From Aurantiacibacter aquimixticola (GTDB lineage: Bacteria > Pseudomonadota > Alphaproteobacteria > Sphingomonadales > Sphingomonadaceae): DNA of 64,000 nt. The translations under genes were made by a program, and so were the position numbers. This document shows, one piece after another, positions 52,487-57,425 of this stretch (within the stretch, counting starts at the first letter, position 1; each line of letters opens with the position of its first letter). Where the stretch lies: contig NZ_RAHX01000001.1 of assembly GCF_003605475.1 (NCBI RefSeq), positions 1,116,001-1,180,000 of the forward strand, given 5' to 3'. The notes beneath the pieces are model-generated. The model had not been told where the DNA came from, did not search any database, and worked only from the letters and a program-made list of their open reading frames with translations.

Positions 52487-52663
52487 TCAGCGGGCGTAAT
52501 TCACATACAGACCGTGGATCAGGCCGGGAATGTAGAACAGCAACGTCAGCACAAGGTTGATGAGCGTGGTCGCGCCGAGCCCATGCTTCATCGCCACGCC
52601 CAGCGGCGGGATCAGAACGGTAAGAATAAGAACGAGAATGCCCATGATGCGAATGTCCTTCAT
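52487..52663 (-). CDS. YqaE/Pmp3-family stress membrane peptide
   Basis: The 58-residue protein has two membrane helices with the family sequence ILTVLIPPLGVAMKHG and LTLLFYIPGLIHGLYV. Members in plants and yeast (Pmp3, RCI2) are small hydrophobic proteins tied to salt and cold stress and membrane potential; bacterial ones are stress-linked but poorly characterised. The ATG at 52663 is preceded by an EcfG-type promoter. It stands alone with its own terminator. Confidence 0.9.
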   Translation of the reverse strand: MKDIRIMGILVLILTVLIPPLGVAMKHGLGATTLINLVLTLLFYIPGLIHGLYVNYAR

Positions 52664-52715: not shown

Positions 52716-53021
52716 GCGAGGACGGTTGCGATGGAATCTGAAGGGGAAACGGTGAAAGCTTCGGGGAGGCGGGACCGGGAGACCTGGTTGGGGACCAATG
52801 GAACGGCCCCGCCTCTTTAGAAGACTTTGGGTACGCCGCATTCTTTGCAGGGGCCGTGCCAGTTCCGGCCGAACCAGCTTTTCGGCCCGACACGATGGTT
52901 TCCGAAATCCTAACGCGCGGCCCCTGTGTAAGAAAGTCCGACAGATCGCCTGTCCTCAGCTTGGACCCGCAACGTCGCTTTGATCGTTCCCCAAGCAAAC
53001 ACCACTTGAAGGACATTGCTC

Positions 53022-54873: not shown

Positions 54874-55608
54874 ATGGACGGCGAGACACGCAAGATCGCA
54901 GGCAGCGAAGCCGCAGGGGCGGGATTTCGCTATTTTCCCTACATCATGGCCGCCTTCGTCGCGATCCTGTTGCTGAGCAATGTGATCGGCGCGGCGAAGC
55001 CGAGCTATGTCCGCCTGCCTGACGGCAGCGAGTGGGCGTTCGGCGCGGGCGTGCTGTTCTTCCCCATCAGCTACATCATCGGCGACGTGCTGACCGAGGT
55101 CTACGGCTACGCCAATGCGCGCCGGGTGATCTGGACGGGCTTCGCCGCGCTCATCTTCATGGCGCTGATGGCCTGGGTGGTCGTCGCACTACCGCCTGCG
55201 GAGGGCTGGCCGGGACAGGAAGCCTATGAATTCGTGTTCGGAAACAGCTGGCGCATCGTGCTCGCCAGCATCGTCGCTTTCTGGGCGGGAGAATTCGCCA
55301 ATTCGATCGTCATGGCGAAGATGAAGGTGTGGACGGACGGAAGGATGCTGTGGAGCCGGACCATCGGTTCGACCGTGGTCGGCCAGGGGATCGACAGCCT
55401 GATCTTCTATCCACTCGCCTTCTATGGCCTAGCCGGATGGCCGATCGAGCAATTGTGGCAGGTCGTGCTGTCGCAATGGCTCATCAAGACGGGGTGGGAA
55501 GCGCTCCTCACCCCGGTTACGTATCAGGTGGTCGGTTTCCTCAAGCGGCGCGAGGGGGTCGAGGTGTTCGACACCGACACCGACTTCTCGCCCTTCGGCG
55601 GAAAGTGA
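54874..55608 (+). CDS. Queuosine precursor transporter (YhhQ/VUT family)
   Basis: The 244-residue membrane protein has six or seven helices and the family marks FPYIMAAFVAILLLSNVIGA, FPISYIIGDVLTEVYGYANA, FWAGEFANSIVMAKMKV and SRTIGSTVVGQGIDSLIFYP. YhhQ imports preQ0/preQ1, precursors for the queuosine modification of tRNA. It is next to a tRNA gene, though queuosine is not placed in tRNA-Arg, so the neighbourhood is probably chance. Confidence 0.92.
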   Translation: MDGETRKIAGSEAAGAGFRYFPYIMAAFVAILLLSNVIGAAKPSYVRLPDGSEWAFGAGVLFFPISYIIGDVLTEVYGYANARRVIWTGFAALIFMALMAWVVVALPPAEGWPGQEAYEFVFGNSWRIVLASIVAFWAGEFANSIVMAKMKVWTDGRMLWSRTIGSTVVGQGIDSLIFYPLAFYGLAGWPIEQLWQVVLSQWLIKTGWEALLTPVTYQVVGFLKRREGVEVFDTDTDFSPFGGK

Positions 55609-55621
55609 AGCTGGTCTGCGA

Positions 55622-55828
55622 TCATTTCGCGACCAGCCACACGATCAAATAAAGCAGGATGAAGCTGCCGAAGCCAGCAATCGCGCCGACGGCGAAGATC
55701 AGCCTGACAATGAGCGGGTCGATACCGAAATAGTTGGCGATCCCGCCGCACACTCCGGCCAGCTTGGCGTCATGCGTCGCCAGGCGAAATTCGGCCGGAG
55801 ATTTGTTGGGGCCTTTCAGGTCGTTCAT
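55622..55828 (-). CDS. PspC-domain membrane protein
   Basis: The 68-residue protein is a bare PspC domain: FRLATHDAKLAGVCGGIANY, FGIDPLIVRLIFAVGAI and a second hydrophobic part ending LLYLIVWLVAK. PspC partners in the phage-shock envelope-stress response and acts at the inner membrane. It is third in an operon of three, its ATG overlapping the stop of the second 42-residue peptide (ATGA). The operon starts at a sigma-54-type promoter, the class that PspF activates in E. coli. No pspA or pspB is present. Confidence 0.88.
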   Translation of the reverse strand: MNDLKGPNKSPAEFRLATHDAKLAGVCGGIANYFGIDPLIVRLIFAVGAIAGFGSFILLYLIVWLVAK

Positions 55829-55953
55829 GCCAGCACTCCGGCGATCGTCGTCGCGGTCGGATTGGAGAAGCTGCTGATGAGCAGCGTGGCGGTCATGGCC
55901 ACGGCGCCGAAAGCGGCAAAGAGGCGGCCGAAAAGCGGGGAATTGGTATTCAT
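55825..55953 (-). CDS. 42-residue membrane peptide, second of a tandem pair
   Basis: The peptide is MNTNSPLFGRLFAAFGAVAM followed by TATLLISSFSNPTATTIAGV and LA (42 residues in all). It has one hydrophobic segment (about residues 11-28) and the motif SSFxNPxATTxxGVLA at the end. It is identical to the first copy in 23 of 42 positions and has the same length. CAGGAGAC precedes the ATG. Its stop overlaps the pspC start, so they are coupled. No known family recognised. Confidence 0.75.
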   Translation of the reverse strand: MNTNSPLFGRLFAAFGAVAMTATLLISSFSNPTATTIAGVLA

Positions 55954-55984
55954 GTCAGTCTCCTGTCGGTTTGGCGCGTCGGGG

Positions 55985-56113
55985 TCAGGCGAGCACGCCG
56001 AGAACGGTGGTGGCATTGGGGTTCGCAAAGCTGCTCACGAAGAGCGTGGCGGTGATGGTCATGGCACCGATTGCGGCGAACATCTTGCTGGCGAAATCAC
56101 TGGTCTTGGTCAT
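55985..56113 (-). CDS. 42-residue membrane peptide, first of a tandem pair
   Basis: The peptide is MTKTSDFASKMFAAIGAMTI, TATLFVSSFANPNATTVLGV, LA. It has a short charged start, one hydrophobic segment (about residues 11-28) and the shared SSFxNPxATTxxGVLA end. GAGGAG sits 7 bases before the ATG at 56113. It lies about 46 bases after the expected start of a sigma-54 promoter and 31 bases before the second copy. Unknown function; conserved length and sequence between the copies support real genes. Confidence 0.75.
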   Translation of the reverse strand: MTKTSDFASKMFAAIGAMTITATLFVSSFANPNATTVLGVLA

Positions 56114-56169
56114 GTCTAATCTCCTCATTGGTGGGTTTTACGAATTGTTTTGTCCCACACCCCGACTGA

Positions 56170-56185
56170 TGCAGGGGGTGTGCCA
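56170..56185 (-). promoter_or_regulatory. Sigma-54 promoter for the small-peptide/pspC operon
   Basis: On the minus strand TGGCACACCCCCTGCA fits the sigma-54 -24/-12 consensus TGGCACG-N4-TTGCA, with GG and GC in the exact spacing and only two mismatches. The predicted start is near 56159. About 80-90 bases upstream of that, TTGGC/GGCAA at 56236-56251 forms a partial dyad where an activator might bind. The rest of the 56114-56339 gap shows no gene. Confidence 0.65.
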
Positions 56186-56339
56186 ATTGCGAAAAACGGG
56201 AGATTTCTGCCATTCTCGTTCAGGCGACAGACAGATTGGCGATGATGGCAAACCAAGGGTTGGGAAATTTTACTAACTGTTGGATCGGTGAAATTCCGGT
56301 GGCGCCGCAATTGCCGCTCGCTTAGGCATCGGCCCGGCC

Positions 56340-57425
56340 ATGGCGCTCGACCGGATCACCCTTTCCAGCTTTCGCAACCACGTCGAAACCCGGCTCGACG
56401 GGGCGCGTGCGCTCAATCTGCTGGTGGGCGAAAACGGCGCGGGGAAGACCAATGTGCTCGAAGCGCTGTCGCTCTTCGCTCCGGGCCGCGGACTGCGCCG
56501 CGCGGCGCTTGCCGATATGGCCGGGCAGAGCGGAGAAGGCGGCTTCGGCGTCAACGCAATGCTCCAGCCCGATGACGGGGGTGAGCCGGTCAAGCTTGGC
56601 ACCGGCATGCACGCGCAGCGTCCCGGTCGGCGCGTGGTGCAGGTGAATGGGGCGGAAGCGAGCGCGGTCGGCCTTGGCGAATGGCTGGCCATCGGCTGGC
56701 TTACCCCGGCGATGGACCGCCTGTTCGCCGAGAGCGCAGGCACGAGGCGACGCTACATGGACAGGCTGGCGGTGGCCATCGACCCCGCCCATGCCCGTCA
56801 TGCCAGCCGCTACGAAACGGCGCTGCGCGAGCGCAACAAGCTGTTGTCGGACGAGCAATCGCCCGATCCCGCCTGGCTCGATTCCATAGAGATGCAAATG
56901 GCCGCGGCGGGTGCGGCGCTGGCGCAGGGCCGCGCGCGGCTGGTCGGCGCGCTTTCGCAGGAACTCGCCGCGCTGCCGACGGAGCCTTTTGCGCGCCCCG
57001 CCCTTTCCTACCGGCCCGGCGGCGCGCTTGGCGAGGACGACTTCGCCGCCCAGCTGGCAGAGCAGCGCCCCCGCGACCGCGCGGCCCAGCGCACGCTCAC
57101 CGGCCCGCATCGCGATGAGCTGGACGTGAAGATGGACAGCAAGGACATGCCCGCCGCCGAATGTTCGACCGGCGAACAGAAAGCGATGCTGATCGCCATC
57201 ACCCTCGCCCATGCGGCCCTTGCCGCGCGCGGCCGGGCCAGCCTGTTGCTGCTGGACGAAGTCGCCGCGCATCTCGATCCGGTGCGGCGCGAGGCGCTGT
57301 TAGAACGACTGCGTGATAGCGGGACGCAGGTCTGGCTCACGGGCACCGAGGCGGCCCCGTTCGACGATATCCTGCAGGAAGCCGCCGTCTGGCATGTTGC
57401 CGATGGCGCGGCGGTGCGGATGTGA
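56340..57425 (+). CDS. recF: DNA repair/replication protein RecF
   Basis: The 361-residue SMC-like ATPase helps load RecA at gaps. It has SFRNHVETRLDGARALNLLV, the Walker A GENGAGKTNVLEAL, SLFAPGRGLR, the signature STGEQKAMLIAITLAHA and Walker B-type LLLLDEVAAHLD. It is divergent from the sigma-54 operon and is not next to dnaA-dnaN here. Confidence 0.96.
   Translation: MALDRITLSSFRNHVETRLDGARALNLLVGENGAGKTNVLEALSLFAPGRGLRRAALADMAGQSGEGGFGVNAMLQPDDGGEPVKLGTGMHAQRPGRRVVQVNGAEASAVGLGEWLAIGWLTPAMDRLFAESAGTRRRYMDRLAVAIDPAHARHASRYETALRERNKLLSDEQSPDPAWLDSIEMQMAAAGAALAQGRARLVGALSQELAALPTEPFARPALSYRPGGALGEDDFAAQLAEQRPRDRAAQRTLTGPHRDELDVKMDSKDMPAAECSTGEQKAMLIAITLAHAALAARGRASLLLLDEVAAHLDPVRREALLERLRDSGTQVWLTGTEAAPFDDILQEAAVWHVADGAAVRM

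Follow-up and report, generated by a model that had tools for sequence, protein, structure and literature searches.

Organization of the locus

Within the window, by which we mean the whole 64,000-nucleotide stretch of DNA that was analysed, the minus strand carries two ORFs of 42 residues followed by a 68-residue ORF with a PspC domain. We refer to these ORFs and their promoter elements as the module. Its features and neighbours are listed below.

56340..57425, plus strand: recF-like gene, the divergent neighbour (PF02463, 64.5 bits)
56250..56283, minus strand: candidate PspF upstream activating sequence (UAS) CCAACAGTTAGTAAAATTTCCCAACCCTTGGTTT, an imperfect palindrome found as a matrix match, which begins 98 bp before the box
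56192..56221, minus strand: a further conserved element, GAACGAGAATGGCAGAAATCTCCCGTTTTT, located between the UAS and the promoter, from alignments compared by eye
56170..56185, minus strand: sigma-54 -24/-12 box TGGCACACCCCCTGCA, from sequence, its position kept in relatives
56120..56125, minus strand: Shine-Dalgarno sequence AGGAGA of peptide 1, from sequence
55985..56113, minus strand: peptide 1, 42 aa, MTKTSDFASKMFAAIGAMTITATLFVSSFANPNATTVLGVLA, a predicted single-span membrane microprotein (ORF, conservation, codon selection, AF2)
55959..55964, minus strand: Shine-Dalgarno sequence AGGAGA of peptide 2, from sequence
55825..55953, minus strand: peptide 2, 42 aa, MNTNSPLFGRLFAAFGAVAMTATLLISSFSNPTATTIAGVLA, paralogue of peptide 1 (ORF, conservation, codon selection)
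55622..55828, minus strand: mini-PspC, 68 aa, the PspC domain alone, without the C-terminal half of canonical PspC
54874-55608, plus strand: transporter-like ORF on the other side of the module (PF02592)
52487-52663: Pmp3 gene (PF01679, 62.7 bits)

The basic layout given in a preliminary description of this DNA was borne out. The two short ORFs of equal length are identical at 23 of 42 residues, a value reached by none of 10,000 shuffles of peptide 1. The good ribosome binding site claimed for each of them is found as AGGAGA before both starts, and the reported overlap of the second ORF with the pspC start is present in GCATGA, where the stop of peptide 2 shares letters with the start of pspC. 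The recF-like gene serves as a positional marker of the module in many relatives. The candidate activator site at 56250-56283 falls outside the span 55622..56185 covered by that description.

A conserved sigma-54 box precedes the peptides

The sigma-54 consensus lies near TGGCAC-N5-TTGCA, with a GG-N10-GC -24/-12 element. TGGCACACCCCCTGCA reads TGGCAC-N6-TGCA with GG-N10-GC spacing, lies 56 bp before the first ATG and agrees with the consensus at 10 of 11 specified positions. The exact -24/-12 spacing noted earlier upstream of the peptides was thus confirmed, and the box is present in 27 of the 28 loci recovered by a single-sequence search with the peptide. In 26 of the 27 boxed loci its distance to the first peptide is 53-60 bp; for the 27th, L063, the distance is given relative to the second peptide. 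Altered boxes occur within the genus as TGCG in G015 and TAGCAC in G020. The G015 locus (L133) has TGGCACGCCCCCTGCG as its box together with the upstream site and a peptide, and the G020 locus (L066) has TAGCAC where the box is expected and keeps the upstream site.

Taken alone, the box is weak evidence, because a second exact TGGCAC-N6-TGCA occurs in the window, at 52861, and because the loose pattern is not enriched genome-wide (302 instances versus 402 for the reversed control, at most one mismatch). It is its conservation across loci that makes it convincing, and the sequence supports a sigma-54 promoter as the driver of the module.

The second instance is TGGCACGGCCCCTGCA, at window positions 52846-52861 on the minus strand, about 180 bp before the Pmp3 gene. 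No PspF-type site was found upstream of this box by matrix scan, and no box was seen at the Pmp3-like ORF in two relatives, one of which is cut near the end of its stretch.

An upstream site is shared with the pspA promoter

Alignment of 27 module promoters (L066 left out) revealed a second conserved block upstream of the box, which is an imperfect palindrome. In the same genome, the divergent pspF-pspA promoter contains TGGCACACCCGTTGCA. We took 30 pspA loci, of which 29 have a box in range and one, L110, does not; L121 is atypical. In 29/29 of the boxed pspA loci, the best match to the pspA block begins 97-99 bp upstream of the box.

A matrix was then trained on 27 pspA promoters alone, leaving out the genome's own L096 as well as L121 and L110; later matrices keep L096, and some add module sites. 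With the pspA-trained matrix, the best match lies 98-99 bp before the box in 27/27 genus module promoters. The module's own site scores 23.0 bits, a value reached by 0 of 200 shuffles (maximum 0.2), and the other 26 sites range from 28.8 to -7.8. Eighteen of the 27 module sites exceed all 200 mononucleotide shuffles, and the score of the worst site was reached by 8 of 200. On both strands of the 64-kb window, more than 4 bits are attained only at the own site and its reverse complement.

The same geometry recurs in other sets of loci, which overlap in genomes, so that the following counts are not to be summed. Among 31 further module loci, picked for having a box, the best match falls at 97-99 bp in 28 with the pspA-only matrix and in 29 with a matrix that includes module sites. 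Outside the genus, the site lies at 97-99 bp in 20 of 22 further loci with either matrix; in L147 it lies at 117 bp, and in L151 the matrix did not find it. Of 80 named PspC loci, 29 (some from training genomes) have a box and a short PspC, with the site at 98 bp in 29/29, and 36 have a PspC ORF without a box, 35 of these not being labelled sphingomonads and one, L166, being a sphingomonad; the other 15 had no PspC ORF by pattern and were not parsed. Twenty 19-kb stretches from genus-mates each contain one pair of site and box, at the module. In addition, the core pattern AAATTTCCCANNNNTTGG occurs twice in the 2.55 Mb genome, here and at pspA (at most one mismatch; 0 for the reversed control); since the pattern was drawn from those two sites, this shows uniqueness and is not an independent discovery.

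The matrix was also applied to enterobacterial promoters. Its core picks TTAGTGTAATTCGCTAAC before E. coli pspA (score reached by 2/300 shuffles) and GTAGTCAAATTCACCACG before pspG in a Klebsiella-labelled plasmid record (7/300), both of which we take to be footprinted PspF sites. With the full-length matrix the corresponding values are 1/300 for E. coli pspA, with the match on the other strand, and 0/300 for Klebsiella pspG. According to passages of PMC3709507, PspF binds two UASs at the E. coli pspA promoter and a single one at that of pspG. The upstream site held in common with pspA makes it very probable that PspF regulates the module, and the likeness of the motif suggests that PspF would bind at 56250-56283.

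One could still suppose that a chance sigma-54-like box happens to precede unrelated small ORFs, in line with the lack of enrichment of the pattern by itself. However, box and upstream site are conserved at a fixed geometry and the ORFs show codon-position selection, and we give this explanation practically no weight.

Between the upstream site and the -24 element, module promoters also carry a second element of the form GAAC..ATGGCAGAATTC.GC..TTTTT. When the 27 module and 29 pspA promoters were compared by eye, a similar stretch was seen before many pspA boxes. It is possibly a site for an architectural protein.

The canonical Psp system is intact elsewhere in the genome

The preliminary description had stated that pspA and pspB are missing, which holds at this locus. 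Genome-wide it does not, as a canonical divergent pspF-pspABC (L004) lies intact about 1 Mb from the module. Its products exceed the cut-offs of their models: PspF scores 464.3 bits with TIGR02974 (cut-off 443.55), PspA 118.7 bits with PF04012 (cut-off 33.9), PspB 87.6 bits (cut-off 51.7) and full-length PspC 133.7 bits (cut-off 104). The genome also encodes RpoN (223.2 bits) and five strong Sigma54_activat proteins, PspF among them.

These results bear on the earlier proposal that the locus is a reduced Psp module, its peptides standing in for PspA and PspB. The absence of pspA and pspB beside this pspC had spoken for such a replacement. With PspF, PspA, PspB and PspC all encoded in the same genome, the replacement is not supported; moreover, 45 of the 46 genomes searched for PspA have it, and the peptides have no PspA or PspB match. 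We regard it as extremely improbable.

Of the 46 genomes searched with the mini-PspC profile, 41 have a PspF above its cut-off; the five that lack one are G004, G055, G062, G066 and G068. The module is present in G004 (87% complete), which has neither a PspF above the cut-off nor a PspA match. The 23 genus-mates that carry psp and the module on the same contig have about 9-26 kb between the two. PspF also occurs in other families of the order where no module was seen.

Conservation and spread of the module

A single-sequence search recovered the peptide in 28 of 99 genomes (its own included), all among the 40 of the genus. At these loci a PspC ORF of 68-73 aa is present in 28/28, and a profile search of the loci showed tandem peptides in one to three copies. 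Of the remaining 12 genomes of the genus, reached through the profile, 12/12 carry a short PspC at a locus of this kind and 11/12 the box pattern. One of their loci, L132, has box, peptide and mini-PspC, and in L143 (G027) box and mini-PspC are present while the peptide was not picked up by pattern. Across the genus, mini-PspC is thus found in 40/40 genomes, the box by pattern in 38/40, and a peptide was read in 39/40. The refutation proposed earlier, that the peptides are not conserved in relatives, did not materialize, and the suggested co-occurrence with pspC, rpoN and pspF is supported: the peptides are conserved with pspC, and rpoN and pspF are present in the genome.

The peptide profile matches 39 of 396 genomes of the order, many weakly. 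Among 19 loci read from this search (L076-L094), 14 combine a box and a short PspC with one or more peptide-like ORFs, and five (L084, L089, L090, L091 and L094) are without a short PspC. The mini-PspC profile matches 39 of 46 selected genomes. Of these 46, 16 are from the family but outside the genus, and eight of the 16 have the box, peptide, mini-PspC and the site at 97-98 bp (L130, L137, L141, L142, L144, L145, L146 and L148), and partial modules occur at L147 and L151. In G042 and G058 mini-PspC is found solely inside the psp operon. G044, G050 and G057 have only a PspC of canonical length in the locus read, and G055 has no mini-PspC profile match.

Outside the family, four loci were read (L152, L153, L155 and L157), all with a PspC of canonical length; the other mini-PspC profile matches there score at most 47 bits, except G080 with 52.4. 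In a sample of the class, the mini-PspC profile matches 3 of 190 genomes at E 1e-14, all from this family (G000, G099 and G100), with the 59.7 bits of G099 falling in the range of canonical PspC. In the samples searched, the module was seen only in the family Sphingomonadaceae, and not in every genus of it.

The peptides are predicted membrane microproteins under purifying selection

Neither peptide matches any family of Pfam or NCBIfam up to E 10, PspG, PspD and PspB included. We compared codons with single differences in 24 of the 28 loci, leaving out pairs more than 30% different; the pairs are not independent of one another, and loci with a single copy enter both sets. In their own frame, the synonymous to nonsynonymous ratio is 635:362 for the first peptide (66 pairs) and 462:214 for the last (49 pairs). 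The same test in the other two frames gave 115:564, 263:698, 46:616 and 53:900. The peptide codons are under purifying selection, and the peptides are proteins.

We collected 117 distinct peptides from 93 module loci; the genome sets overlap, and some entries are one ORF with an earlier start. Copies per locus number one (39 loci), two (45), three (8) or none (1). The anchor [KRH]xxA fits 94 of the 117, and the other 23 were left out of the positional counts. Counted from the basic residue, small residues stand at +7 in 100% and at +11 in 99% of the 94 anchored peptides, which together with +3, fixed by the anchor, gives a small-x3-small-x3-small face. Of the 117 peptides, 100 end in Ala, 16 in Val and one in Met. 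An AF2 single-chain model of peptide 1, of only moderate confidence (mean pLDDT 76), predicts one helix over residues 3-30 and a low-confidence tail.

Two other roles for the peptides were weighed against these data. First, they could be membrane-active, self-limiting peptides of the YohP or TisB kind that lower the membrane potential or stiffen the membrane, with mini-PspC as the protecting partner. Their size, single span and tandem copies fit this idea, as does the account, in passages of PMC12719787, of the small E. coli membrane protein YohP lowering membrane potential and inducing PspA/PspC. However, the C-tails carry few charges (K/R/D/E in 14 of the 94 anchored peptides). Furthermore, the locus is present in 40/40 searched genus genomes, whereas toxin modules are usually patchy in distribution, and we consider this role unlikely. 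Second, the hydrophobic stretch could be a signal peptide from which a short tail is released. By eye, small residues end the stretch and a conserved proline follows, and Ala or Val is C-terminal in 116/117 peptides. Since the AF2 model shows one helix to residue 30 and the tails are hydrophobic and variable in length, secretion appears less likely still.

Mini-PspC

The 68-aa product matches PF04024 with 67.9 bits, above the cut-off of 25. With TIGR02978 it scores 48.2 bits, below the cut-off of 104, and covers model positions 8-58 of 121; we call it mini-PspC because it falls short of this full-length equivalog model. In G058 (L149) and G042 (L150), mini-PspC stands directly before canonical PspC, beside pspF, and neither a box nor an upstream site was found at the mini-PspC of these two loci. 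As read from gene order, they represent an independent linkage of mini-PspC to Psp, and the arrangement suggests how the satellite unit may have arisen.

A proposed satellite operon of the PspF regulon

We interpret the module, with a probability of about 0.8, as a satellite operon of the PspF regulon that encodes single-span membrane microproteins and a mini-PspC as accessories to the Psp system. Points against this reading are the five Sigma54_activat proteins of the genome, the G004 module without a PspF above the cut-off or a PspA match, the altered boxes of G015 and G020, the displaced site of L147 and the missing one of L151, and the lack of a module in part of the family. In E. coli, stress frees PspF from PspA, according to passages of PMC9239133. 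Similarly, inner-membrane stress would here release PspF, encoded 1 Mb away beside pspABC, which would bind the palindrome at 56250-56283 and drive sigma-54 RNA polymerase at 56170-56185. A single transcript would then yield the two paralogous microproteins and mini-PspC, the latter through translational coupling at the overlapping stop and start. The microproteins would most likely adopt an N-in/C-out orientation, as suggested by the basic residue before the span, and pack through their conserved small-residue face with one another and with mini-PspC. The resulting complex would be an accessory to the Psp response, as its effector or modulator, working alongside, not instead of, PspA/B/C. That the peptides and mini-PspC act jointly is rather probable, and for an effector rather than a regulator we would give about even odds.

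As regulators, the peptides would be sensors of stress that either keep mini-PspC in check or relay the signal to PspA or PspF. In the loci read they are encoded upstream of pspC, often overlapping it, and passages of PMC9239133 and PMC11237479 assign PspB and PspC a part in signal transduction. On the other hand, peptides that stand under the shared site themselves would be made only after the signal. A regulatory role is thus possible but rather doubtful.

The satellite operon is best read as resembling E. coli pspG in its logic while being unrelated in protein. Like the module, pspG is described in passages of PMC9239133 as a distant unit with a PspF UAS, a sigma-54 promoter and a small inner-membrane product. 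PspG is 80 aa long, with two predicted spans according to passages of PMC2763126, unlike the tandem peptides of about 42 aa with one predicted helix and the accompanying mini-PspC. YohP, in turn, resembles the module peptides in being short, in having a single membrane span and in its link with phage shock (passages of PMC12719787). The peptides differ from it in having a PspC encoded alongside them and in standing under an upstream site that pspA also has; we claim no relationship.

According to passages of PMC9239133, PspF has been described as a Psp regulator only in Enterobacteriaceae. We found no published description of the module in the titles and abstract openings of the open-licence literature. 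With the module, a PspF regulon whose enhancer geometry is nearly frozen becomes open to testing in Alphaproteobacteria, together with a microprotein family invisible to the domain models tried (Pfam, NCBIfam). Mini-PspC, in turn, gives a genetic handle on the role of PspC when reduced to the PspC domain.

Small ORFs of the canonical psp operon

Between the sigma-54 box of pspA and pspA itself lies a 51-residue ORF (L004 7021-7176, minus strand; C1:153023-153175 without the stop). An ORF of this kind (45-60 aa, M[FY]...A) is present at 30/30 pspA loci. A profile of the 51-mer matches 29 of 147 genomes of the order, 28 of them in this family and several weakly, and the 51-mer has no match in Pfam or NCBIfam. 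No homology between it and the 42-mers was detected, the hhalign probability being 0.4% over 6 columns.

The module shares with canonical pspFABC (PF04012, PF06667, PF04024, TIGR02974) the geometry of site, 98 bp and box, the PspC domain and the presence of a small ORF immediately following the promoter. It differs in having no pspA or pspB, in a PspC of 68 aa versus 127, and in small ORFs that are not detectably related (the same 0.4%). As a tentative extension, which we hold at somewhat below even odds, sphingomonad Psp would be a two-operon system whose PspF transcripts are each headed by fast-evolving membrane microproteins, 51 residues long before pspA and one to three of 35-46 residues before mini-PspC. 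These would form an undescribed inner-membrane Psp subcomplex through small-residue helix packing, and their hydrophobic-Ala C-terminus, which is nearly invariant, would perhaps serve for clearance.

A separate group of seven tandem small ORFs lies downstream of pspC in the canonical operon (L004 3434-5481, minus strand). By eye, six of the seven share a similar LERI/VERI-TD end, and the seventh and last has a weaker one. Six were scanned, and the first alone gave a PspB match, at 22.9 bits against a cut-off of 25.6. PspB duplicates in psp operons, as well as PspC variants, are reported in passages of a survey of Psp diversity (PMC11237479).
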